Shown one piece after another: positions 11,553-36,846 of a stretch of 36,846 bases of DNA. Every line of letters starts with the position of its first letter. Position 1 is the stretch's first letter. The DNA is from a virus. The translations under genes and the position numbers were made by a program. Location: positions 1 to 36,846 of IMG/VR virus record IMGVR_UViG_3300021471_000015; one strand, written 5' to 3'. The notes beneath the pieces are model-generated. The model had not been told where the DNA came from and made no database searches. It was given only the letters and a program-made list of their open reading frames with translations.

Positions 11553-13418
11553 CTAGGCTATCTCCTTGCCTGATACTCTAACTTTACGCTGCTGATCTCT
11601 GCGGCGTTTGCGGGCATAGCGGGCCTGTGGGTTGTCAAGATTGCCTACGCTTATCTCTGATAGCACTACAAGGCCATCTGTGCGCAGGGTCATCTCTCTG
11701 ATTGCGCCGTCTACTTTACCCAAGTCTTTTACAAGTTCCATGCCCAATGCGGTTGCTGAGCCATCCAATGCGGCTTCGAGCTTGTTGATGTACCGTGTGG
11801 CTCTGCGGTACGCATCGGCTAAGAGCTTTGTCGAGTTCTGCGGTGCGCTGAAGTCTTTCAGGTGTAGGCTGTAAAGTTCGTCTGCAACCTCTAAATCTAC
11901 GCTGTCGATATCGCCGCCAGTGAAGCCGGGGATCTCAATCTTGGTCCATCGGTCACGGTTGTTTGGTAGCCGCCTTGTGCCAACCATCTTGATCTTCATC
12001 AGCATTTCTTTGTGGAACTTGAGGTCTTCCATCTGAGGTATGAATACGCCCGCCTTGGTTGCCGTGCTGTTGCCATCGTCATCCTCGCCCCAGCCGACGT
12101 ATATCTGCAAACCTATTAGCTCGCTGATTCGCCCCAGCCATGCGGTCTGCACGTTGTCAATCGTGCCATTGAAGCTCAAGCGTATGATGTCATCTGGCTC
12201 AGATTCCCATGCAGCGCTGAAAGGCGCGTCGGGCAGCACGCCGTTGTCTATCTCATGAACCGCGCCAACCTTCGCGCCGTCAAGCGTATTGCCCTCTGCC
12301 ATGTTGAACCATGTGACGAACTCAGCCTCTACAGGCGTTGCAGCTATGTCGTTCTGTAGTTCACCGTTGACTAGCGATAGTTCACCGAATCGCAGGTCAG
12401 ACCAACCGCCACGCTTGCCATCGGCTGACGGATAGTTGACCTTGTAGAGTTTACGCCAATCGCGCTTGATGATTGCTATCAGTTGTGCGCCGGGGTTGCT
12501 ACCGTCACGCTCTGCGCCGGTGCCATCGAAGTTGTTTGTATTGATTACGCGGGCTATCTGTTCCTCTGTGATGCTGCCACCAAGCGCATCAAGCAAGTCC
12601 TCAAGGCTCAGGTACTCACCGTTGTATCCGTAGCGCTGTACTAATTCGACACTTAGCTCATCATCGGTCACGCTTATGGCTGCTTCTGGCTCAAGTTCGA
12701 TGTTGTGGCGTTGCTGGTAATATACGTTGATAACCCTCGGCAAACCCTTGCGGCTTCGGGAGGTTGTGTTCCATGTTGGCTCTAGCCCGAACGCCCAGTT
12801 GTAAGCGTTGGTGGCGATGTTGATAGTTGAGCCTGTGGCACGGGTCGCGAAGTACAGCAAACCGTCAGTGCCTACAGTGTAGTCATAGCCAACGCTCTCG
12901 CAGATTCTATCCAAGCCAGCGAGCATCATGCTACCTGCTGTCAACGTGCCGTCCTCTATTCGCTCATTGCTGTTGATTAGGTACGGCGCGATGTTGGCTG
13001 CTAGGATTGGAGACAGTGGCACGATGTAATCAATCACCTCATGCAGGTAGGGCCACTCGGTTCCATTCAGGTAGCCGTCACGCCATAGGATGTTGATGTC
13101 TGCTGGGAATAGCTCACGGGCGATGTCTGCACGGCAGTCGGCAAGGTGTAGCTCACAGACTTCCTCTGATAGCTTCCTGACCTCAAGCAGCCTTACGCCG
13201 CTAACTGTGATTGTGTCGTGTGCAGGGTCAGCCCTGCCGTCTTCGCTTGCGACGGTCCATGATAGGTCATTGATGTACGGCAGCGCCTCGAACTCAGCAG
13301 CACGGTCGCCGCCTTGTTGAACAACGACTGTGCGCAACTGGCTACCACGATACAGAGGCCATTGCACATCTGCATCGTCGAATACCACGCCACCAAGATC
13401 AATGATTGTTCCGGTCAT
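11553..13418 (-). CDS. Tail hub or baseplate-like protein
   Basis: A 621-residue protein starting MTGTIIDLGGVVFDDADVQW. A mixed alpha/beta first half (LFPADINILWRDGYLNGTEW, then a long middle) and a basic C-terminus (KRRRDQQRKVRVSGKEIA) are visible. It lies directly downstream of the distal-tail-like gene and upstream of the large fibre gene, and it overlaps the upstream gene by ATGA. The position matches the tail hub (Tal/gp27-like) of siphophages. I see no peptidase or lysozyme motif. Family assignment is by context. Confidence 0.6.
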   Translation of the reverse strand: MTGTIIDLGGVVFDDADVQWPLYRGSQLRTVVVQQGGDRAAEFEALPYINDLSWTVASEDGRADPAHDTITVSGVRLLEVRKLSEEVCELHLADCRADIARELFPADINILWRDGYLNGTEWPYLHEVIDYIVPLSPILAANIAPYLINSNERIEDGTLTAGSMMLAGLDRICESVGYDYTVGTDGLLYFATRATGSTINIATNAYNWAFGLEPTWNTTSRSRKGLPRVINVYYQQRHNIELEPEAAISVTDDELSVELVQRYGYNGEYLSLEDLLDALGGSITEEQIARVINTNNFDGTGAERDGSNPGAQLIAIIKRDWRKLYKVNYPSADGKRGGWSDLRFGELSLVNGELQNDIAATPVEAEFVTWFNMAEGNTLDGAKVGAVHEIDNGVLPDAPFSAAWESEPDDIIRLSFNGTIDNVQTAWLGRISELIGLQIYVGWGEDDDGNSTATKAGVFIPQMEDLKFHKEMLMKIKMVGTRRLPNNRDRWTKIEIPGFTGGDIDSVDLEVADELYSLHLKDFSAPQNSTKLLADAYRRATRYINKLEAALDGSATALGMELVKDLGKVDGAIREMTLRTDGLVVLSEISVGNLDNPQARYARKRRRDQQRKVRVSGKEIA

Positions 13419-27249: not shown

Positions 27250-27513
27250 TCATTGGTTTGTAAGCGAGTCAACGAATGCCATGAACGCTGTGTGGAACTC
27301 ATCGAATGTTAGGGTCGCGTTGGCCGTCTGGAAGTTGTGGCGGTAGCTCAGGTAGACCTTATCGCCGTCGTCGGCGCGAACTTGGGCCTCGTTACAGGTT
27401 CCATCATCTTCAACGCTTGTATCCTGTGTCGCCCAATAACGGTCGAACGTCTTAGGCACGAGTACGGTGATTTCGTTGCCAGTTTGGTCAGTCTTTGGTT
27501 TCGTCTCGCGCAT
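27250..27513 (-). CDS. Hypothetical protein, first gene after the structured leader
   Basis: An 87-residue protein starting MRETKPKTDQTGNEITVLVP. It reads as beta/alpha with FDRYWATQDTSV and ends LTFDEFHTAFMAFVDSLTNQ. It is the first coding sequence downstream of the 551-bp noncoding region. The ribosome site is weak (AAGAAAG), so I give it moderate confidence. The N-terminal lysine run and position suggest a late leader protein, but no family is recognised. Confidence 0.55.
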   Translation of the reverse strand: MRETKPKTDQTGNEITVLVPKTFDRYWATQDTSVEDDGTCNEAQVRADDGDKVYLSYRHNFQTANATLTFDEFHTAFMAFVDSLTNQ

Positions 27514-27595: not shown

Positions 27596-27632
27596 TGACC
27601 GCAAGGTAAGCACTACTAAATGCTTGCGGTCA
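27596..27632. repeat. Ten-base-pair hairpin
   Basis: TGACCGCAAG (27596-27605) is complementary to CTTGCGGTCA (27623-27632), with a 17-base loop. No T tract follows on either strand, so this is not a typical terminator. Confidence 0.8.
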
Positions 27633-27656
27633 TTCACTCAGTTATGAAGGAATAGC

Positions 27657-27931: not shown

Positions 27932-28058
27932 CAAAAGAAAACCGCCAATCAAGGCTTTCTTTGTCGAAGAGAAGCAGTGTGATTGACGGTTAGAATCGTG
28001 AATCTAGTTGTACTTCTCTTCGACAAGAGGACAATACACTATCCCCTAATCTTGTCAA
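27932..28058 (-). ncRNA. Pseudoknot leader L1 with promoter (late unit)
   Basis: Promoter: TTGACA (28058-28053), 16-base spacer, TATTGT (28036-28031). Four bases later the first arm B (28026-28013, TTGTCGAAGAGAAG) begins. Then come A (27991-27980), B' (27974-27961, perfect 14-bp match to B), A' (27951-27940, 12 bp with one G-U on the minus RNA), and a T-rich tract at 27939-27932. B' lies in the loop of the A hairpin, and A lies in the loop of the B hairpin. Spacers are 21, 5 and 9 bases. Confidence 0.7.
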
Positions 28059-28064
28059 GTGGCT

Positions 28065-28295
28065 TTACTTATCCTCCGAATCCCAAACAGGCCCATCACC
28101 CACAACCTTGCCCACAATGTCATATTCCATGACAATCACGCGGCTATATATATTTTCCTCGACCCGACACTCAGCAACGCCTATGGCTGTCTCTTTGGCG
28201 CGTTCATGGCCTGCCTTGGTCGATGGGCCGCTTATGCTGGTGAATGTCTGGGGGCTTTTAGTTCCGATGCTTACTTGTACTTGGTAGTGTCTCAT
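28065..28295 (-). CDS. Hypothetical early protein
   Basis: A 76-residue protein starting MRHYQVQVSIGTKSPQTFTS. It looks like a beta-start, helical-middle protein and has no recognisable motif. AAAGGAGATAAGCA precedes the ATG. The start region (28264-28308) is duplicated at 28483-28527 with one difference. It ends seven bases before the L1 -35 box. It is the last gene of the unit begun at L4. Confidence 0.7.
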   Translation of the reverse strand: MRHYQVQVSIGTKSPQTFTSISGPSTKAGHERAKETAIGVAECRVEENIYSRVIVMEYDIVGKVVGDGPVWDSEDK

Positions 28296-28308
28296 TGCTT
28301 ATCTCCTT
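28264..28308. repeat. 45-bp direct repeat, copy 1
   Basis: This segment matches 28483-28527 at 44 of 45 bases. It covers the ribosome site and first 11 codons of the 28065-28295 gene. Confidence 0.9.
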
Positions 28309-28433
28309 TGGTGGGGATGGCAGCAGGTTTCGAGCCTGCATCTCGGGGCATCCTCTAGTCCGGTCCCGTGGCCTTTGTTCTCGGCACGACAAGAGTTTGC
28401 TACGCGCATTTACCAGTATGCTATGCCATCCCC
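28309..28433 (-). tRNA. tRNA-like cloverleaf with oversized centre
   Basis: On the minus strand, GGGGATGGCA at the 5' end pairs perfectly with TGCCATCCCC, followed by A and an encoded CCA. A D-arm (GCAT, loop ACTGGTAA, ATGC) and a T-arm (GCAGG, loop CTCGAAA, CCTGC) are present. The 65-base stretch between D and T arms holds no normal anticodon arm, so the anticodon cannot be assigned. The acceptor helix is 10 bp rather than seven. It may be a decayed tRNA with an insertion, or another structured RNA. Confidence 0.5.
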
Positions 28434-28439
28434 ATTATC

Positions 28440-28514
28440 TTATTCTTCAACTTGATAACCCATGCTTTTTGCAAGTTCCTTGCCGATGCTTACTTGTACT
28501 TGGTAGTGTCTCAT
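28440..28514 (-). pseudogene. Short duplicated start, 24-residue peptide
   Basis: The frame reads MRHYQVQVSIGKELAKSMGY then QVEE and stop. The first 11 residues equal those of the 28065-28295 product, and the rest differ. GGAGA precedes the ATG, which overlaps the TGA of the upstream gene (ATGA). It looks like a truncated duplicate created when the segment with the tRNA-like structure entered, or a small peptide of its own. Confidence 0.55.
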
Positions 28515-28527
28515 TGCTTGTCTCCTT
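28483..28527. repeat. 45-bp direct repeat, copy 2
   Basis: The partner of 28264-28308, 219 bp away. The intervening part contains the tRNA-like structure and the end of the short peptide gene. Confidence 0.9.
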
Positions 28528-28747
28528 CTTTCAGGGCGTTGATAATATCAATCCCACACCCGTCTTTGTGTACTACATGGTCAAGATGGCCCCAAACATC
28601 TTCAGGGTCGCAATCAGAGCCGCCGCACAACTTGCAACATTGGTCGCCCTGCCCATCCATGCTGCGATGATATTCAATAGGATTGCGCATCGTGTGGGCG
28701 ATCAGGCCCATAGCTTTAACTAATTCTTCGTTACTAAAGTATTTCAT
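28511..28747 (-). CDS. Small Cys/His-rich early protein
   Basis: A 78-residue protein starting MKYFSNEELVKAMGLIAHTM. It contains CCKLCGGSDCD, then WGHLDHVVHKDGCG: five cysteines and three histidines that could bind zinc. AAGGAGAATGAG precedes the ATG. A hairpin closing with CCCCA and TGGGG lies just upstream of the ribosome site (about 28761-28787) and could limit translation. It could be a nucleic-acid or protein binder, but no family is known to me. Confidence 0.7.
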   Translation of the reverse strand: MKYFSNEELVKAMGLIAHTMRNPIEYHRSMDGQGDQCCKLCGGSDCDPEDVWGHLDHVVHKDGCGIDIINALKEGDKQ

Positions 28748-28841
28748 AACTCATTCTCCTTACCCCAACTATCGTCCATCCGGCGACGTGGGGCCATTAC
28801 ATTCCTCGGGTTCGTTTGGAATCCTCAACATGTCGCATCAG

Positions 28842-29246
28842 TTAGGTATTAGCAGAATTGACCGCTTGGGCCATAGCGATGTAGGCTTCTAGCTTTGTTG
28901 GGAAGCCCTTCTTGTCCACACCCTTGGTTGGTTCAGGCGGGCAGAAACCCTCTAACACAGGCTTGAACATAATCACGTAGCGCCAATGCACATTATCGTT
29001 CACATCCTTGTAAGGTCGCACATAGCAATCGCTCATGAACTCGTTAGCGTTCAACACATCTAGGCAGAATCGCTCCAACGCCGCGCAGATTAGGTCGGTT
29101 GCGTCGGTGTCATCGAGCGACGGTCCATCAGTCTCATAGTAGCGCAGGAACTCATAGCGCCCACACTTTGACGGGACGATGCGCACGTTGTTCATCCCGC
29201 CCACTATCTCGCAGGCTTGCTTGTATTGCTTGATTAGATCGGTCAT
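28842..29246 (-). CDS. Hypothetical early protein
   Basis: A 134-residue protein starting MTDLIKQYKQACEIVGGMNN. The run VNDNVHWRYVIMFKPVLEGF with aromatic beta strands and TKLEAYIAMAQAVNSANT at the end suits small alpha/beta phage proteins. It overlaps the upstream DnaA-like gene by ATGA, and AAGGAGG precedes the start. I do not recognise the function. Confidence 0.7.
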   Translation of the reverse strand: MTDLIKQYKQACEIVGGMNNVRIVPSKCGRYEFLRYYETDGPSLDDTDATDLICAALERFCLDVLNANEFMSDCYVRPYKDVNDNVHWRYVIMFKPVLEGFCPPEPTKGVDKKGFPTKLEAYIAMAQAVNSANT

Positions 29247-29764
29247 ACCGTGGCCTCCTTTGGTTCACACAAACTATAAAGCTCAGACGCTTCACGCATC
29301 ATGGTCTCCACGATATCATTGAACTTGAGATCTTCGGAGCGCTTGACTTGTGCGCGTGTCTCGATATCCATGACGCTAGTGTGTGAGGTTATGCCCCACC
29401 ACCGCGCTATTTCCTTCCATGAGAGCGGCAAAATGGCCCTCTGGACGCACACAGCCGCCATCCTTGCCTTCACAGTCGGTCTGTGCCGTCGCTTGCTTAC
29501 AATCTGCGTAAACGTGACATCGAAGCGCCACTCAGCACTCTTGACAATCCGGCGCATCAGGTCGTGGTGTGGTCCTGAGAACGCTTCCTTGGACTTCGGC
29601 AACGCACACAACGACACGATGCTTCTATCCAGCTTCCCTAGCTTGGCTTGAACGTCGGCAAGGATTTCATCGTACCCGCGCTGGCCTTGCGTTTCTGTGT
29701 CAACCCATGCGATGATATTGTTGATGCGCTGCTTGATTTGCTGCTTGCTTATACCTTGGCTCAT
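29243..29764 (-). CDS. DnaA domain IV-like DNA-binding protein
   Basis: A 173-residue protein. Residues about 95-135 (ARMAAVCVQRAILPLSWKEI, then ARWWGITSHTSVMDIETRAQ) follow the DnaA C-terminal pattern: a helix, then 'S..EI...FG..DHTTV...', where HTSV replaces HTTV. In DnaA this domain reads DnaA boxes at the origin. No AAA+ domain is present. It lies between RusA and small early genes in the replication unit, so a role in origin recognition or in competing with host DnaA is plausible. Start follows GGAGTGTAGG. Confidence 0.75.
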   Translation of the reverse strand: MSQGISKQQIKQRINNIIAWVDTETQGQRGYDEILADVQAKLGKLDRSIVSLCALPKSKEAFSGPHHDLMRRIVKSAEWRFDVTFTQIVSKRRHRPTVKARMAAVCVQRAILPLSWKEIARWWGITSHTSVMDIETRAQVKRSEDLKFNDIVETMMREASELYSLCEPKEATV

Positions 29765-29765
29765 C

Positions 29766-30224
29766 CTACACTCCTAAATCGACCGCCGTAAATGTAATTT
29801 CAATGTAATCGACCTTTGGCTTCGATTGGTCGTAAGCGTACGTGCTTGAGTCGGCGATGTGATGCTTCCAGTCATCTTCCTCGATCACGCCATGCCCGTA
29901 ATGCGCTATCTGTAAGGCGTCCAAGCAACTTTTCTGCGCCCAGCCCAATAAATTGCTCGGGTCCGTTCGGGTGCTTGAGACGAAATGGAAGTGTACTTCG
30001 TAGGGGCCTTTTATGCGCGGATAGCCAGCTTCCTGCCACGCCAGAAGTATCCGCGCAGCCTCCTGCTTCTTCTTCGGGGCAAGGTGGCGTGTGTGCGTTC
30101 GCAACACCTCATTCATGGTCATCAGCTTACCCTCGACTGTGATCATACAGGAGTCAACGTACGTGGGCTTGTAATCGCCCATAATCGCATCCATCTGTGC
30201 TCTGAATTCTGCGCTAGTTGCCAT
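29766..30224 (-). CDS. rusA: RusA-like Holliday junction resolvase
   Basis: A 152-residue protein. I start at the ATG at 30224, which lies in the end of the upstream gene; a longer frame exists but lacks a good site. The sequence has KKKQEAARILLAWQ, then GPYEVHFHFVSSTRTDPSNL and GHGVIEEDDWKHHI, followed by KVDYIEITFTAVDL. RusA family members have conserved Asp residues in the 'DxDN...D' region that coordinate Mg2+; here TDPSNLL and EEDDW supply these. It would cut branched DNA to give packageable duplex. Confidence 0.75.
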   Translation of the reverse strand: MATSAEFRAQMDAIMGDYKPTYVDSCMITVEGKLMTMNEVLRTHTRHLAPKKKQEAARILLAWQEAGYPRIKGPYEVHFHFVSSTRTDPSNLLGWAQKSCLDALQIAHYGHGVIEEDDWKHHIADSSTYAYDQSKPKVDYIEITFTAVDLGV

Positions 30225-30435
30225 CCATAGCCCCCAAAACAACCCGCATCGCCTGCAATAGGTCTGCGCGGGTTTGCTTGTGTGCGGCTTGCTCGGCATT
30301 GCGCTCACGCTCTAAATCCTCGGCAATGTTGAACCAAGCAGTATGAGCGGCGTTGGCTTCGGCTAGCGAGTCCTCAAGCCTAGCGTTTTCGGTATTCAGC
30401 TTGGCAACCAGTGCCTCTAAGTCACGTTTATACAT
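30214..30435 (-). CDS. Small coiled-coil early protein
   Basis: A 73-residue protein starting MYKRDLEALVAKLNTENARL. It is almost entirely a coiled coil with heptad leucines (LVAKLNTENARLEDSLAEAN) and ends QAMRVVLGAMDGN. AAAGGACTACCAG precedes the ATG, and overlaps with both neighbours are eight and eleven bases. It may oligomerise or act as an adaptor in the replication block. Confidence 0.7.
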   Translation of the reverse strand: MYKRDLEALVAKLNTENARLEDSLAEANAAHTAWFNIAEDLERERNAEQAAHKQTRADLLQAMRVVLGAMDGN

Positions 30436-30679
30436 CTGGTAGTCCTTTCTTGTTGCGGTGCCACTCGATCAACTCTGCTTGCGTCATTCCCCACAGCCTA
30501 GTGTATGCGCTTGCGATGCTTGCTAGCACCATTCTGTCAGACTCCGACACTGAGCCATCGCCAAACAGGCCTGCGTATCTAGTCCGCCATTCCAAATCGG
30601 TATGCGGGTTAGGCCATGTGGTGTTATTCCACAGTAAGATGTAAGACTCACCTATCTTGTCTCCTGGCTTAGTTGTCAT
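30428..30679 (-). CDS. Hypothetical early protein
   Basis: An 83-residue protein starting MTTKPGDKIGESYILLWNNT. It contains WPNPHTDLEWRTRYAGLFGD and a helical C-terminus with EWHRNKK. The ATG at 30679 is chosen over the GTG three bases before because GGAGG is better placed. It overlaps the next gene by eight bases. No known family. Confidence 0.65.
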   Translation of the reverse strand: MTTKPGDKIGESYILLWNNTTWPNPHTDLEWRTRYAGLFGDGSVSESDRMVLASIASAYTRLWGMTQAELIEWHRNKKGLPDV

Positions 30680-30879
30680 CACTCATCCTCCTTGCATTGC
30701 TGGTATCCGTGGCAAATGGGGTCGCGAAGGGCTAGGGCTGTCATAATCTCAAAGCGTACCGAGAACGGTAGCTCTGCAAAGTTGGAATACCGTTTGATGT
30801 CGTGGAGCGCCTTGTAAGCTGTTTCAATCCCGCATTGCCCGCCGTGCTTGCAGCTCTGGCATTCTTGGTTAGTTTCCAT
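30679..30879 (-). CDS. Small Cys-rich early protein
   Basis: A 66-residue protein starting METNQECQSCKHGGQCGIET. It has CxxC, then C further on, plus CHGYQQC near the end (five cysteines and one histidine), so zinc binding is likely. GGAGTGATAGCA precedes the ATG at 30879. It is in the replication unit and overlaps the upstream gene by eleven bases. Function not known. Confidence 0.65.
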   Translation of the reverse strand: METNQECQSCKHGGQCGIETAYKALHDIKRYSNFAELPFSVRFEIMTALALRDPICHGYQQCKEDE

Positions 30880-31207
30880 TGCTATCACTCCCTGCGCGTC
30901 GCTGAAATCTCCGCATCCTTGATCGTTTTATAACATCCAGATGCACCCAGTAAGTCACCCACGCCTTGCCCTCTGGCGTGTCTTCTAACGTGTCTCGCAT
31001 CTCCCACGGACCGTTCGGATACATATCGACTCTATCAGGCTCACGGACGTTGCCATGCGCGTCTGTGGTGTATGCTGGTATCGGTCTTGGCAGCGGCTTA
31101 TAATAGGCTTCCTTCTGCGCGTCGGTCAGATCGTTCACGTAGCGTGGGCTGCCTGAGAAGATTTTCTCCCACATCGGGAGCCATTGCTCGGCCATTTCAT
31201 TGCTCAT
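30869..31207 (-). CDS. Hypothetical early protein
   Basis: A 112-residue protein starting MSNEMAEQWLPMWEKIFSGS. It is rich in aromatic and proline residues (KPLPRPIPAYTTDAHGN), ending in a basic run (KRSRMRRFQRRAG). It starts in an ATGA overlap with the DnaC-like gene, with which it is probably co-translated. A helicase-loading partner role would suit the position, but there is no sequence proof. Confidence 0.65.
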   Translation of the reverse strand: MSNEMAEQWLPMWEKIFSGSPRYVNDLTDAQKEAYYKPLPRPIPAYTTDAHGNVREPDRVDMYPNGPWEMRDTLEDTPEGKAWVTYWVHLDVIKRSRMRRFQRRAGSDSNGN

Positions 31208-31713
31208 TGCATTCTCCGGTCTTTACCGTCCATGACAATCTCATCGAAACTGGCAAGCCTTGAAGCTAGGCGCGGCTCCAGTTCGTGGATTTCTTGCAGT
31301 GTCAAGTTCGTGGTGATTGTGGTGGCCTTCAGGTAAGACACCCGATGGTCAACCAATGCTAGTATCTCAGCCAACCCGAACTCGCCAACCTTCTCCGCGC
31401 CGATGTCGTCAATCACTAGCCTGTCGACTTCCGCGTAACGCTCAAACACGTCCATATCAGACTCGGTTGAGTGCTTGCCGAACGTTGACCTGATTTCACG
31501 CAGATAGTTATTGGCCGTCACAAAGCCGATTGAACTCTGATAAGTCATGTAGCAATGAATCAGCACAGCGCACGCTTGGTACGTCTTACCCGTGCCGTTA
31601 TCGCCACGTAGCAGCATGTTTGGTGCAAGCTCTACCGTCAATTCCGACTCGTGGTACATCGGCGGTATGCCTCGCTTAGTATAAAATCGTGCGTATCCTT
31701 CACCGATTGCCAT
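31204..31713 (-). CDS. dnaC-like: DnaC-like AAA+ ATPase (helicase loader)
   Basis: A 169-residue ATPase without the usual N-terminal domain. Walker A is LRGDNGTGKTYQACA (residues about 34-48), Walker B is DRLVIDDIGAEKVGE (about 95-109), and a sensor/arginine region ends it (TTNLTLQEIHELEPRLASRL). DnaC and IstB relatives load the replicative helicase onto DNA. The product is shorter than DnaC (about 245 residues). GGGGAGCAAAAGT precedes the ATG. The start overlaps the end of the replisome organizer gene by 14 bases, so they are coupled. Confidence 0.8.
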   Translation of the reverse strand: MAIGEGYARFYTKRGIPPMYHESELTVELAPNMLLRGDNGTGKTYQACAVLIHCYMTYQSSIGFVTANNYLREIRSTFGKHSTESDMDVFERYAEVDRLVIDDIGAEKVGEFGLAEILALVDHRVSYLKATTITTNLTLQEIHELEPRLASRLASFDEIVMDGKDRRMQ

Positions 31714-32485
31714 ACTTTTGCTCCCCTGTTAGCTTTGAAAAACTATTAGTCTTGGCCGTCTGCCCGCCCTTAGGCGCAAACAATCCCGCGTACCCGTTAG
31801 CTATCGAATTATCAACTGCGGCTTGTACGTTTGGGCCTAGTTCTTTGAACTTGCCGACTAGCTTAGTGAGCGTTGCCTTGTGTTTGATCTTCTTGTAGCT
31901 AACCCATTCGTCCCAAGCGGTTTTGTACTTGGCTAGTTCTTGAGGGCAACTTGTGTCCAAAGCTGTAGTTGTCTTTTTACTCTTCTCTTCTTTACTCTTC
32001 TCTTCTCTTATGTCCGTAACGCGTTGTAACGGTTCGTCACGCTTTTTTCTATCGCGATATGCCTTCTGGCGCTCGGCAGAGGTCTTGGCTGTTCGCATAG
32101 CATCAGGCGTGTTGTGTTCGCTAAAATTAGGGAATCTAAGTCCGTTGCCCTCGACTTCCTCAACCCAACCAACCGCTAATAACGCTAGCCCAAAGTCTGG
32201 TAAACCAGTAATATCATCAAGATCAATCAGCGACATATAAGGCACTACTTCATCGTCCTTGATGACACCATTCGTAACGCCCCATAACTCTAGTAACGCA
32301 CACGTCACGCAACGCGTTACGTTACCAAACGTCACTAACTCTGTAACGTTCTCTTTGGCTGTCATGCGTTGCGGGTCGCCCCACCAATTCATAAACGCTC
32401 TGCTCTCAGATAGGTGCCTTGAGATAGCAATAACCCTCGGATGCTTCCGAAGTGTTACGCGCATCTTGATCCATTCACTTGCCAT
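31700..32485 (-). CDS. Phage replisome organizer-like protein
   Basis: A 261-residue protein starting MASEWIKMRVTLRKHPRVIA. Residues 1-120 resemble the winged-helix N-terminal domain of phage replisome organizers. A basic linker (RQKAYRDRKKRDE, KSKEEKSKK) follows. The C-terminus has YKTAWDEWVSYKKIKHKATL and NSIANGYAGLFAPKGG, the 'SI..Gy.GLF.PK' end seen in initiators that recruit DnaB via DnaC. The ATG at 32485 has GGAG at good spacing. It is the first gene after leader L4 and directly precedes the DnaC-like gene. Confidence 0.8.
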   Translation of the reverse strand: MASEWIKMRVTLRKHPRVIAISRHLSESRAFMNWWGDPQRMTAKENVTELVTFGNVTRCVTCALLELWGVTNGVIKDDEVVPYMSLIDLDDITGLPDFGLALLAVGWVEEVEGNGLRFPNFSEHNTPDAMRTAKTSAERQKAYRDRKKRDEPLQRVTDIREEKSKEEKSKKTTTALDTSCPQELAKYKTAWDEWVSYKKIKHKATLTKLVGKFKELGPNVQAAVDNSIANGYAGLFAPKGGQTAKTNSFSKLTGEQKYGNR

Positions 32486-32490
32486 CATCA

Positions 32491-32635
32491 CTCCAAAACA
32501 AAGCCTGCCCCAATTCCGTGACGGGAAGATATAGGGCAGGCTCGTTGTGGGCTTTGAGGCCCAGCCTTGAAAGATTGTATAGATAGCCCCGTCACAGAAC
32601 TACCGAGATAATACACTCCAGCAAACCAGTGTCAA
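32491..32635 (-). ncRNA. Pseudoknot leader L4 with promoter (replication unit)
   Basis: Promoter: TTGACA (32635-32630), 16-base spacer, TATTAT (32613-32608). Then come B (32595-32588, GTGACGGG), A (32542-32534), B' (32525-32518, perfect 8-bp match to B), A' (32510-32502, perfect 9-bp match to A), and TTTGTTTTGGAG (32502-32491). The 45-base spacer between B and A contains a small GGGC/GCCC hairpin. The T tract leads into the ribosome site of the replisome organizer gene. Confidence 0.7.
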
Positions 32636-32637
32636 AT

Positions 32638-33093
32638 TTATTTCTTGGATTTATCCACGCCGGATTGCTTGGTTGCTCGGACTGCTGCTAGGGCGGCTTT
32701 GCAGATGGCTAGTGGCGCGGGCTTCAAGCGTTCATGCGCAAACACTCGCAAAGCCATATGTGTGAAAGTAGCGTAGCAAACAGACGCATCGGTAGGCCCA
32801 TAATCCAACTCAAAGCCGAATCCATCAGCCCGCATCTTCTCTACAACGAGCCAAGCTGCCGCAATGTCGCTTTCGTAGGCGGGCGGGCCTTCTGTGTGCA
32901 TTCGAGGGTATGGCGCTACTTGGTCTTGACAATCAAAAAACTTACGCGCCTCTTTCTCGTCGTAGAATTGTTTATGGGTGGTGATTGCGCCACTATCGAA
33001 GTGTAGGCCTACATAGCTTTCCACGACCCACCGTTGCTTCCACCCCACGACCTCAACAGCCACAGCTTTCCTAATCTCCAAGTCTTCCATCAT
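32638..33093 (-). CDS. Phage ABA sandwich-like protein
   Basis: A 151-residue protein starting MMEDLEIRKAVAVEVVGWKQ. The segment YESDIAAAWLVVEKMRADGF followed by a strand pattern is typical of the small phage ABA-sandwich (Phage_ABA_S) family as I recall it, which has no firm role. Either of the first two ATGs (33093, 33090) could be used; CAGGAGATGG is just upstream. It ends three bases before the -35 box of L4 and is last in the L3 unit. Confidence 0.75.
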   Translation of the reverse strand: MMEDLEIRKAVAVEVVGWKQRWVVESYVGLHFDSGAITTHKQFYDEKEARKFFDCQDQVAPYPRMHTEGPPAYESDIAAAWLVVEKMRADGFGFELDYGPTDASVCYATFTHMALRVFAHERLKPAPLAICKAALAAVRATKQSGVDKSKK

Positions 33094-33126
33094 CCATCTC
33101 CTGTTCCGCTACTTTTCGGGGTTGGG

Positions 33127-33142
33127 GTTGTTTAGGTGGTTG
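33127..33142. repeat. 16-bp direct repeat, copy 1 (at a gene end)
   Basis: GTTGTTTAGGTGGTTG is present here and at 33645-33660. Both copies span the stop codon of a leftward gene, which are the methyltransferase and the small zinc-finger gene. Confidence 0.85.
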
Positions 33143-33602
33143 GTACGTTCAAGAATGTAATCCAATGCGTCTTGGAAGCCTTGCCGCTACGGTGCCCAAA
33201 CAATGGCTTTACAGGCGTGAGCGCAAGTATCTTGGACACTGGTACTTGAATCTCATTCCACTTGAATACTAGCGTCCCGTAGGGTTTCAGCACACGGAAG
33301 CATTCAGCGAAGCCAGCGGCTAACTCGGTCTGCCATTCGCCCTCTAGCTTGCCGTACTTTAGGAACTGCCAGCCCTTTTCGCCCACTCGTTCAAGGTGTG
33401 GCGGGTCGAACACAACCAAATGGAACGAGTCGTCAGCAAATGGTAGGCTTGTGAAGTCGGCCACCACGTCAGGCTTGACTTCCAACGCCCGTCCATCGCA
33501 AAGCGTGTGTGATTCTGAACGCTTATCTACGAACATGACTTGCTGGTTATTCTTGTCAAACCAGAACATCCGGCTTCCACAACATGCGTCTAAGACTTCC
33601 AT
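33132..33602 (-). CDS. SAM-dependent methyltransferase (DPPH type)
   Basis: A 156-residue protein starting MEVLDACCGSRMFWFDKNNQ. Motif I is LDACCGSRMFW, followed by DKRSES and then VVFDPPHLE (DPPH, a variant of the DPPY/NPPY catalytic motif of N6-adenine and related DNA methyltransferases). The C-terminus is YGTLVFKWNEIQVPVSKILA. It is small enough to be a compact phage enzyme, possibly for anti-restriction. GAGGGAGATGGAACG precedes the ATG at 33602. A longer upstream frame lacks a good start. Confidence 0.8.
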   Translation of the reverse strand: MEVLDACCGSRMFWFDKNNQQVMFVDKRSESHTLCDGRALEVKPDVVADFTSLPFADDSFHLVVFDPPHLERVGEKGWQFLKYGKLEGEWQTELAAGFAECFRVLKPYGTLVFKWNEIQVPVSKILALTPVKPLFGHRSGKASKTHWITFLNVPTT

Positions 33603-33644
33603 CGTTCCATCTCCCTCGCTAGCCTTGAATTGCTGGCGGCTAAA

Positions 33645-33660
33645 GTTGTTTAGGTGGTTG
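33645..33660. repeat. 16-bp direct repeat, copy 2 (at a gene end)
   Basis: The partner of 33127-33142. It spans the end of the 33650-33874 gene. Confidence 0.85.
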
Positions 33661-33874
33661 TCTCTCGGAATCCATTCTCTTTCAACTCCGCATCTGTAGC
33701 TTCGCCCAATGTTGGCTCTGTGGCGCGTGATGTAGATGGCTTCCTGTGATGTTCGCGCTTGTACTCTTTGTAGCAATCCTTGCAAAGAACAGGGTATCCG
33801 TGAGCCTTCACAAAATACGTCCCGCACTCTTGGCAAGTTTGGCCCGTGTAAATGTCTTCTGCATATTCACCCAT
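33650..33874 (-). CDS. Small zinc-ribbon protein
   Basis: A 74-residue protein starting MGEYAEDIYTGQTCQECGTY. CQECGTYFVKAHGYPVLCKDC gives two CxxC pairs separated by about 13 residues, a zinc ribbon or finger, followed by a basic stretch (KREHHRKP). It probably binds nucleic acid or protein. It is the first gene after L3; GGAGTAGG lies just upstream, on the T-rich end of L3. Small zinc proteins of this type often precede early phage operons. Confidence 0.75.
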   Translation of the reverse strand: MGEYAEDIYTGQTCQECGTYFVKAHGYPVLCKDCYKEYKREHHRKPSTSRATEPTLGEATDAELKENGFRETTT

Positions 33875-33883
33875 AATCCTACT

Positions 33884-34000
33884 CCAATCAAAATGCCCAC
33901 CCACACAAGCTGTCGAAGGCTGTTGGAAGTGCAGGCGGGCAAGTTTATATTGGTTGACCTTCGACTGGGTTACTGTACTGCATGGATGCTGGCTTGGCAA
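33884..34000 (-). ncRNA. Pseudoknot leader L3 with promoter
   Basis: Promoter: TTGCCA (34000-33995), 17-base spacer, TACAGT (33977-33972). Then come B (33965-33958, GTCGAAGG), A (33941-33934), B' (33919-33912, perfect 8-bp match to B), A' (33901-33894, 8 bp with one G-U), and TTTTGATTGG (33893-33884). Spacers are 16, 14 and 10 bases. The T tract runs into the ribosome site of the zinc-ribbon gene. The start of transcription (about 33965) coincides with the first base of B. Confidence 0.7.
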
Positions 34001-34029
34001 ATAAAAAAGCAGCCTCCGAAGAAGCTGCT
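33999..34029 (-). terminator. Rho-independent terminator after the tRNA-like gene
   Basis: AGCAGC (34029-34024) and GCTGCT (34013-34008) pair on the minus strand with a 10-base loop, and the last arm is followed by a run of T with one A (34008-33999). It would end transcripts that include the tRNA-like structure at 34045-34122. It directly touches the -35 box of L3, so it insulates the next unit. Confidence 0.75.
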
Positions 34030-34044
34030 CTACCTCACTGCTTT

Positions 34045-34122
34045 CCAAAGCTCATGGTGGTTTCCGAGGCCACATCTCCCGCTTAGGAGGCGGTTGCTCT
34101 GCTTTGAGCTACAGAACTTTGG
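34045..34122 (-). tRNA. tRNA-Arg(CCU)-like cloverleaf
   Basis: On the minus strand CCAAAGTTC pairs with GAGCTTTGG. A D-arm (GCTC, six-base loop, GAGC), an anticodon arm (CCGC, loop CTCCTAA, GCGG) and a T-arm (GTGG with nine-base loop, CCAC) complete a cloverleaf. Anticodon CCT would read AGG, a rare arginine codon in many hosts. Weak points are the long acceptor helix with a bulged base, a mismatch at the top of the anticodon stem and a T-loop lacking the standard A58. A terminator follows at 33999-34029, so an independent RNA gene is plausible. Confidence 0.55.
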
Positions 34123-34188
34123 AGTGCGGGCTTTGCCTTGGTTGGAAGCCAAGCGCATCGCTGTTACTGGTTGAACCATACCACGCGA

Positions 34189-34229
34189 GCGTATCAGGGC
34201 AAATGGAATTACCCTGATACGCCGTTTTT
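34189..34229 (+). terminator. Hairpin with T tract on the plus strand
   Basis: GCGTATCAGGG (34189-34199) pairs perfectly with CCCTGATACGC (34212-34222), followed on the plus strand by TTTTT (34225-34229). On the minus strand no T tract follows. No plus-strand gene is near, so it could block antisense transcription or mark a structured RNA end. It overlaps the end of the 34228-34482 gene. Confidence 0.6.
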
Positions 34230-34482
34230 AGTTTGCCAACATGTGGGCGATTAGACTGATAGCGCAGAAGTCAGCAAGCGGCATCTCGTCCTCCACCTCT
34301 TGATCGGTGACAGTCTCAAGCTCTCTACATTCGTTGAAAGCGATGCATTGACGGGTGAAGCGCTTGCGCTGAGTCTCGTCCCAATCATCTGGATAGTCCC
34401 AATCGTTGCAGCCAGCGTTGCCACGCACGTCAGAGTATTCCTCTAAGAATTGCGCTGCTAGCTTTGTATATCTCTTATGCAT
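34228..34482 (-). CDS. Hypothetical early protein
   Basis: An 84-residue protein starting MHKRYTKLAAQFLEEYSDVR. It is acidic, with DYPDDWDETQRKRFTRQCIA, and ends in a helical IALIAHMLAN-like stretch. GGAGAATGAA precedes the ATG. It is the last gene of the L2 unit. No family is recognised. Confidence 0.7.
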   Translation of the reverse strand: MHKRYTKLAAQFLEEYSDVRGNAGCNDWDYPDDWDETQRKRFTRQCIAFNECRELETVTDQEVEDEMPLADFCAISLIAHMLAN

Positions 34483-34507
34483 TTCATTCTCCTAGTTTGG
34501 TTGCTAG

Positions 34508-34777
34508 TTAGCTTGTTGTTAAGCTCGCTGCTAGTTCGTCTACCTCAGCTTGAATCTCTTGTATGTATTCCTCGTACCCATTGGTGTCTATCTTCATCAA
34601 CGCTCGCGCTTGCACGGCTATGATGTCCAACAATGTGAGGTTCCGAACGTAAGTTTCTGCAACAGAAGCTAACTCAACCTCCGCCTCAGTGATCCCGCTT
34701 GCAATAATGCTAGCTGTGATTTCCATGTCGTGAACGGTATCCGCCCTCAACGTTACTAGCTTTGGATGTCCACCCAT
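34508..34777 (-). CDS. Hypothetical early protein, paralogue of the 1565-1918 product
   Basis: An 89-residue protein starting MGGHPKLVTLRADTVHDMEI. It contains LDIIAVQARALMKIDTNG, which shares LDIIAVQ.-AL with the gene at 1565-1918, so these two may be duplicates. It ends in a helical EYIQEIQAEVDELAASLTTS. The ATG at 34777 follows GGAGG, on the T-rich end of L2. It is the first gene of its unit. Confidence 0.7.
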   Translation of the reverse strand: MGGHPKLVTLRADTVHDMEITASIIASGITEAEVELASVAETYVRNLTLLDIIAVQARALMKIDTNGYEEYIQEIQAEVDELAASLTTS

Positions 34778-34789
34778 CTCAATACCTCC

Positions 34790-34920
34790 AAATAGAAAGA
34801 ACCCGCTTATCATTTAGGTGACGAAACCGTAGCGCGATAAGCGGGTCAAAAAGATTGTCGAATATTGGATGCTGCGGTTTCGTCTAGGCAGACTGTACCG
34901 CATCCCCGCATCCCCGTCAA
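34790..34920 (-). ncRNA. Pseudoknot leader L2 with promoter
   Basis: Promoter: TTGACG (34920-34915), 17-base spacer, TACAGT (34897-34892). Then come B (34884-34875, GACGAAACCG), A (34846-34836), B' (34829-34820, perfect 10-bp match to B), A' (34811-34801, perfect 11-bp match to A) and TCTTTCTATTT (34800-34790), then GGAGG of the first gene. Spacers are 28, 6 and 8 bases. The sequence differs from the other copies but the order of arms is the same. Confidence 0.7.
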
Positions 34921-35990: not shown

Positions 35991-36066
35991 TGGCAGCCAG
36001 CGGCAGGATTTGCAACCTGCGTCTCGAGCATTCAAAGCCAGCGTCCTACTATTAGACTACGCTGAC
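35991..36066 (-). tRNA. tRNA-like cloverleaf, extended acceptor helix
   Basis: On the minus strand the acceptor GTCAGCG pairs with CGCTGGC; TA and a D-arm follow (GTCT, AATAGTA, GGAC). The anticodon arm is CTGGC, loop TTTGAAT, GCTCG (three of five pairs). The T-arm is GCAGG, eight-base loop TTGCAAAT, CCTGC. The pairing continues seven more bases outside the seven-base acceptor (14 bp in all). The anticodon position reads TGA but is doubtful. GCCA follows, so a CCA end could be encoded if an 8-bp acceptor is used. Confidence 0.5.
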
Positions 36067-36083
36067 TACCACGCCCATATTGC

Positions 36084-36846
36084 TTAGAAAGGCATCGTAG
36101 GGTCGCTCTCGCCCTCATCGCTCCCTGACGGCTCTTGATTCCCATCATCGAATTGATTCCGCACAGAATCGTTCCCTGCGCCGTATGAACCCTTATCTAC
36201 CTGTGATTCATTGCCGAAGAACTTCTGGACGTTCTCAGAGGCGTTTTCGGACACTGGGGGCAATGATTCAACGTGTGCTTGGCATTCCTCACGCGCTGCT
36301 TGCTGTGCTGCCTTCACTTGTAGCTTAGCGATGTCGTAAGACTCAATGAGCTTATCTTGCAGTTCTTCATTGCTGACTTGACCTGCACGTTTAGCGGCCC
36401 ATGATTGGTACACATAGTCAGGGGTAACAGTTTTCTCGTTGCTGAACTCAAGCACGATACAAGACGGGTGCCACCCTTCCTTGAACGCCGCGTCCAAGAC
36501 CTTGAACACTTGTTGCTCTACAACCTTCACAGCACCACGGGAAAGATTCGCTGTGATCGGGCCACGTTCATCAACACCGTTCTTATCAATCGGTAGCAAC
36601 ATGAGGACGTATGTTTCCTCAGCTAGTGGCGGCTTGTCATTGGTGCCTTTGGGCATCCTGCGCCACACGCATTCAGGTTGCTTATCTTCTGGCACGCACC
36701 CATCAGGATATTGCCAAAGGATCTTACCCTCGTCCTCTGTATCCTTTTCACCCCATCGGACCCAGTTCTTCATGTGCCCGATAACCACGGCTGTAAACGC
36801 CGGACCGAGGCCGTAGTCGCCATTGCGAACGTAGAAGTCGCCTACT
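36084..36846 (-). CDS. SSB-like phage protein, C-terminal part (starts at 312)
   Basis: Together with 1-312 this gives a 311-residue protein. After MVIGHMKNWVRWGEKDTEDE the fold is beta-rich with WQYPDGCVPEDKQPECVW and a helical centre, then a Ser/Asn-rich acidic tail ending DEGESDPTMPF. This end, acidic residues then MPF, resembles the C-terminal tip (D-D-I-P-F) of bacterial SSB, which binds partner proteins. A single-stranded-DNA-binding role in replication or recombination is inferred. I cannot see an OB-fold with certainty. The position after the early genes and before the DnaC-like block is consistent. Confidence 0.7.
   Translation of the reverse strand, partial: VGDFYVRNGDYGLGPAFTAVVIGHMKNWVRWGEKDTEDEGKILWQYPDGCVPEDKQPECVWRRMPKGTNDKPPLAEETYVLMLLPIDKNGVDERGPITANLSRGAVKVVEQQVFKVLDAAFKEGWHPSCIVLEFSNEKTVTPDYVYQSWAAKRAGQVSNEELQDKLIESYDIAKLQVKAAQQAAREECQAHVESLPPVSENASENVQKFFGNESQVDKGSYGAGNDSVRNQFDDGNQEPSGSDEGESDPTMPF
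36708..36846. repeat. Terminal direct repeat, right copy
   Basis: The partner of 1-139, with one difference at 36720. See the left copy. Confidence 0.95.

Follow-up and report, generated by a model that had tools for sequence, protein, structure and literature searches.

The contig of an uncharacterised tailed phage, filed as virus record IMGVR_UViG_3300021471_000015 and analysed here over its full 36,846 bases (the window), carries four promoter-like sites on its minus strand that are each followed by an RNA leader in which two stems with interleaved arms (order B-A-B'-A') are succeeded by a T tract. As judged from sequence, each of the four transcription units may open with a pseudoknot attenuator anchored on the transcription start (+1), with the genes expressed by read-through, a reading to which we assign a probability of about 0.45. 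The first transcribed bases (arm B) would pair with B', which itself lies in the loop of a terminator-type A/A' hairpin, and part of the transcripts would end at the T tract, at about +90 to +110. The terminated product would be an RNA of 90-110 nt with both ends locked in stems, and the genes would be expressed from read-through transcripts, probably after a phage antiterminator or a modified polymerase had lowered termination.

The four promoters with interleaved stems and T tracts had been described in an earlier note on this DNA, and were borne out both by direct reading of the minus strand from 27.8 to 35.1 kb and by an unbiased scan. On the minus strand, the stretch from 27.4 to 36.8 kb has just four promoter-like sites that score at least 10, at 34920, 34000, 32635 and 28058 (Table 1). 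In sigma70 promoters, +1 is taken as the seventh base after the -10 hexamer. The expected +1 is a purine in all four leaders (A, G, A and G). In each of them, stem B sets in 4-7 nt downstream of the -10 hexamer and no more than two bases from the expected +1. A first stem in this place would tie the loop of the terminator hairpin to the 5' end of the RNA, as previously proposed. A run with at least six T in eight bases starts 0-2 nt past A' in all four leaders; such 8-mers cover 0.46% of the positions of the early region. The T tract leads into a Shine-Dalgarno (SD) sequence in the first three leaders, as claimed, and in leader 4 it is followed by about 420 nt with no clear gene, then by open reading frame (ORF) 27250-27513 and the terminase region. 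The stems were found where the earlier note had placed them, but not all of their lengths stood: the first stem of leader 3 has 14 bp (AGTTCTGTGACGGG/CCCGTCACGGAATT, with two G-U pairs) rather than 8, and the second stem of leader 2 extends from 8 to 13 bp when G-U pairs are allowed. The first stem of leader 4 is 14 bp long if perfect and 16 bp with one G-U pair.

The arm sequences differ among the four leaders, which have almost no sequence in common; unlike arms are as expected if shape alone matters. Pairing between leaders is weaker than pairing inside a leader; a B match between leaders 2 and 4 stands out. Loop 1 contains the same 9-mer, ACAATCTTT, in leaders 1 and 3 (minus strand, within 34874-34847 and 32587-32543, respectively); this sharing, in one of six leader pairs, has an uncorrected p of 0.026, and the 9-mer is a possible protein-binding box. 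A further interleaved stem pair (ACTGAGTG / TGACCGCAAG), with neither a strong promoter nor a T tract, lies at 27596-27642 (minus strand), in the non-coding stretch behind leader 4.

Table 1. Predicted promoters, leader arms, T tracts and adjoining features of the four units
Feature	Positions	Strand	Details
Promoter 1 (predicted)	34892..34920	-	TTGACG-17-TACAGT; score 10.75; expected +1 ~34885
Leader 1 pseudoknot (predicted)	34801..34884	-	B 34884-34875 GACGAAACCG; A 34846-34836 ACCCGCTTATC
Leader 1, remaining arms	B' 34829-34820, A' 34811-34801	-	loops 28/6/8
Leader 1 T tract	34789..34800	-	TCTTTCTATTTG; runs into SD GGAGG, ATG 34777 (ORF 34508-34777)
Ordinary terminator (predicted)	34031-34006	-	immediately upstream of promoter 2
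Promoter 2 (predicted)	33972..34000	-	TTGCCA-17-TACAGT; score 10.42; expected +1 ~33965
Leader 2 pseudoknot (predicted)	33894..33965	-	B 33965-33958 GTCGAAGG; A 33941-33934 TGCCCGCC (to 33929 with G-U)
Leader 2, remaining arms	B' 33919-33912, A' 33901-33894	-	loops 16/14/10
Leader 2 T tract	33886..33893	-	TTTTGATT; then SD GGAG, ATG 33874
Promoter 3 (predicted)	32608..32635	-	TTGACA-16-TATTAT; score 14.44, the window's highest; expected +1 ~32601
Leader 3	32502..32601	-	B 32601-32588 (core GTGACGGG 32595-32588); A 32542-32534 AGCCTGCCC
Leader 3, remaining arms	B' 32525-32512 (core 32525-32518), A' 32510-32502	-	
Leader 3 T tract	32495..32501	-	TTGTTTT; then SD GGAG and start of the replication-initiation gene
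Replication-initiation gene	31700-32491	-	directly after leader 3
Promoter 4 (predicted)	28031..28058	-	TTGACA-16-TATTGT; score 11.98; expected +1 ~28024
Leader 4 pseudoknot (predicted)	27940..28026	-	B 28026-28011 TTGTCGAAGAGAAG(TA); A 27991-27980 AACCGTCAATCA
Leader 4, remaining arms	B' 27976-27961, A' 27951-27940	-	loops 19/3/9
Leader 4 T tract	27932..27939	-	TTTCTTTT; without SD

All promoter-like sites with a score of at least 8, on both strands, were scanned for an interleaved stem pair starting within 14 nt. Such a pair is present at seven of the 83 sites, and the four leaders occupy the first four ranks, with summed stacking energies of -47.5 (P32635), -45.1 (P28058), -40.9 (P34920) and -32.6 kcal/mol (P34000); the fifth-ranked site (-27.1 kcal/mol) lies within genes on the opposite strand. 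Shuffled sequences do yield short stems near promoters, and any scan has a best site, but in 1000 windows shuffled in 500-nt blocks with dinucleotides kept, just 41 sites reached -32.6 kcal/mol, or 0.041 per window versus the four observed, a comparison that upholds the earlier claim. Adding the placement of B (start 4-7 nt after the -10 hexamer) and at least six T in the 12 nt past A' left one site in the 1000 shuffled windows (about 0.001 per window). When the leaders were shuffled one by one, the observed value was matched in 0, 1, 0 and 0 of 4000 shuffles for leaders 1 to 4, respectively. In a promoter-free scan of the window, the leaders were the sole interleaved-stem sites with a T run; leader 3 dropped out of it for no other reason than that its two stems, when fully extended, all but meet. 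Chance or a composition artefact therefore has a negligible probability, the shuffled windows having refuted it as far as the structure is concerned; as a sequence pattern, the interleaved-stem structure is real beyond reasonable doubt.

Loop 3, from B' to A', measures 7-10 nt when leader 3 is counted with its 8-bp core. By a simple A-form helix calculation, a loop needs at least 6-8 nt to span a stem of 8-16 bp; loop 3 is at or just above this geometric minimum, and both stems can therefore coexist as a pseudoknot. The spacing of 7-10 bases between B' and A' reported by the earlier note was confirmed for leaders 1, 2 and 4, but applies to leader 3 with the core only (7 nt): the full 14-bp B stem leaves a single loop base and thus cannot coexist with stem A, whereas about 8 bp of it can. 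The layout is accordingly that of an H-type pseudoknot (B-A-B'-A' with adequate loops), in leader 3 only with B cut to about 8 bp. The folds invited the idea of a third helix that would pair loop 1 with the SD sequence as an SD-hiding switch, but it proved no better than chance. No family among the Rfam covariance models run on the window matched the leaders; only two tRNAs reached the threshold.

The second stem and the T tract had been said to form an intrinsic-terminator layout, and all four A/A' stems do show it, with a stable stem and a T-rich tract within 0-2 nt. Terminator-like hairpins were defined as stems at least as stable as -15 kcal/mol that lead into a run with at least six T in eight. 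Five were listed in the window: leaders 1, 2 and 4, the hairpin at 34031-34006, and one found on the plus strand only (34189-34222), opposite to the direction of the nearby genes. Leader 3 is absent from this list because its extended helix absorbs two T; its trimmed 9-bp A stem also qualifies, so that the A stems make up four of the six strong terminator-like hairpins of the window. Shuffled windows contained 0.86 such hairpins each.

Several points weigh against termination and its relief by a phage factor. The loops of the A/A' hairpins (19-32 nt) are large for a terminator, and the T tract of leader 2 (TTTTGATT) is weak. Nested folds rival the pseudoknot in estimated energy: they clearly surpass it in leaders 2 and 3, do so by a smaller margin in leader 4 and are about level with it in leader 1, so that both a pseudoknot and an alternation between folds are possible. 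The early proteins tested yielded no match to any known antiterminator family; Pfam and PHROG searches of these proteins also gave no match to the Q family, but would miss distant homologues. The T tract of leaders 1-3 might alternatively serve as a U-rich region for ribosome binding. This last point belongs to a rather unlikely alternative, in which the leaders stabilise the mRNA and promote translation, the pseudoknot stem from +1 blocking 5'-end-dependent decay and the U-rich stretch keeping the SD sequence open, with no termination. It would account for the start of B at the expected +1 in all four leaders, which attenuation does not need, and for the U-rich stretch that leads directly into the SD sequence in leaders 1-3, and shape without sequence would suffice for it. 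A plain 5' hairpin would be enough, however, and would not call for another, interleaved stem that stops precisely at the T tract, and leader 4 has the same T tract with no SD sequence and some 420 nt of non-coding RNA behind it. We prefer a terminator to a purely translational role because of these features of leader 4. Attenuation, 5' protection and put-like action are all possible; the T tract of leader 4, without a ribosome-binding site, makes attenuation the best fit. Protection of the 5' end explains the anchoring at +1 well and may act together with attenuation. The earlier interpretation is, overall, partly supported.

Leader 4, with no gene directly behind it, and the enclosure of both RNA ends in stems would also suit four small regulatory or decoy RNAs acting in trans, with gene expression as incidental read-through. 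This explanation is improbable: three of the four leaders run directly into a ribosome-binding site and a gene, and no loop sequence beyond the 9-mer of leaders 1 and 3 is held in common.

Relatives were sought among viral contigs (by single proteins, terminase alignment and portal alignment), among genome contigs and by tblastn of phage records; none carrying the early region was found in these three sets. The 27-36 kb part had zero DNA matches among 50,697 phage records, and a DNA search with the four leaders as queries gave a sole match of 33 nt, at chance level. The closest terminase found, on another metagenomic contig (L003), is 44% identical, and the portal shares about 31% identity with its counterparts in Pseudomonas phage AAT-1 and related phages. 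The layout was also scanned for in about 1.83 Mb of loci and phage genomes, comprising distant relatives and other phages. One site was suggestive, a possible fifth leader at 12482-12580 (plus strand) of contig L083, with a strong promoter, an 8-bp B near +1, an 8-bp A, a loop 3 of 7 nt and CTTTTTT. Sites with its score occur about 0.45 times per Mb in shuffles (promoter score of at least 10), and would thus be expected about once in that much sequence; we therefore regard it as a lead only and not as proof. The remainder of the L083 contig held no convincing second site.

The minus strand carries early genes for a replication initiator, a DnaC-like loader and RusA, followed by the terminase, portal and major head protein genes. 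Downstream of RusA, the protein encoded at 29243-29764 (minus strand) matches DnaA domain IV (PF08299, E 4e-8) and had no match in phage records; on its sequence, and from its position in the slot where lambdoid phages carry Q, it is a possible late regulator. Rfam detected two tRNA genes that ARAGORN did not report, at 34048-34118 and 35995-36066 (minus strand), the first of which directly precedes the ordinary terminator and promoter 2. Near leader 4, a tRNA-like RNA of about 121 nt at 28311-28435 (minus strand; GGGGAUGGCA...UGCCAUCCCCACCA), with a T arm and an encoded CCA, folds better than shuffles (z -3.2) and was reported by neither ARAGORN nor Rfam. It is flanked by a 45-nt repeat (28264-28308 and 28483-28527; 98% identical), both copies of which carry the same SD sequence and the same opening codons, start codon included, of a small gene; the pair looks like a duplication or insertion. 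Restriction-type sites are strongly avoided in the whole window, both strands counted (GATC, 122 versus 360 expected; TTAA, 12 versus 116; CCAGG, 1 versus 55), and CCATGG and GGCGCC do not occur in it.

The earlier note had compared the leaders with the put RNA of phage HK022, a comparison that stands for position and fails for form, because put consists of two side-by-side, non-interleaved stem-loops with a sequence common to its copies (PMC9378689). Both are structured RNAs that lie at the beginning of early phage transcripts or close to it, but put has no attached terminator and a conserved sequence, whereas the stems here interleave, have unlike arms and end in a T tract; identity with put was rejected on these features. 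A put-like action, in which the folded leader would stay on RNA polymerase so that later terminators are ignored, is thus hardly favoured. The position at the start of each unit, as for putL (PMC9378689), and the absence from the early units of a protein recognisable as N or Q agree with it; the four leaders nevertheless lack a common fold of the put kind and almost any common sequence, the T tract right behind the element is foreign to put, and the window has few other strong terminators to overcome.

In the gene 32 operator of phages T4 and RB69, a 5' pseudoknot likewise precedes a U-rich stretch of lesser structure and the SD sequence (PMC535899), and the protein of ORF 36084-36845 has an acidic tail (...DPTMPF), which would suit a translational operator bound by a phage single-strand-binding protein. 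That operator, however, has about 28 nt, serves one gene only and depends on UUAAA/UAAA repeats; the leaders span 72-100 nt at four units, one of them without an SD sequence, and TTAAA, found twice in the window, never lies between a pseudoknot and a start codon. Identity with the T4 operator was rejected on the repeats, and with no Pfam or PHROG match for ORF 36084-36845, whose structure model is too poor to use, regulation of this type is very improbable. Type III toxin-antitoxin loci, in which tandem-repeat pseudoknots (ToxI-like RNA) precede a ToxN-type toxin, were also rejected, the leaders being single-copy with no tandem array in the region. PADLOC gave no match for the genes adjoining leaders 1, 2 and 4, and the gene after leader 3 is the replication initiator.

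With ordinary intrinsic terminators and attenuators, the leaders share a G+C-containing stem and an immediate T run, but here the hairpin loop of 19-32 nt holds a strand that pairs with the 5' end of the RNA. Another of the closest known systems is the late leader of lambda (pR', 6S RNA and tR'), a Q-dependent attenuator in which a strong promoter, a short leader and an intrinsic terminator precede the genes. Leader 4, with its promoter and terminator layout ahead of the late genes, resembles it by position and layout only; the lambda leader has no pseudoknot, whereas the layout recurs here at four units. Vibrio phage XM1 has a comparable promoter and a plain terminator upstream of its terminase region. 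It is conceivable, though doubtful, that the four leaders represent a new class, with a sequence-independent pseudoknot on the first transcribed base, a second stem acting as terminator and a first stem setting its efficiency, which one phage would use to gate early and late units alike. If they are attenuators, they would offer a compact system for testing whether a knot anchored at the 5' end of the RNA makes a terminator hairpin more or less effective, and would show how elements of this kind escape RNA searches based on sequence. In phages, whole units are usually gated by a protein antiterminator or by a single RNA element whose sequence is conserved; in this phage, one RNA architecture recurs at every strong promoter of the early half, with the sequence free to vary.

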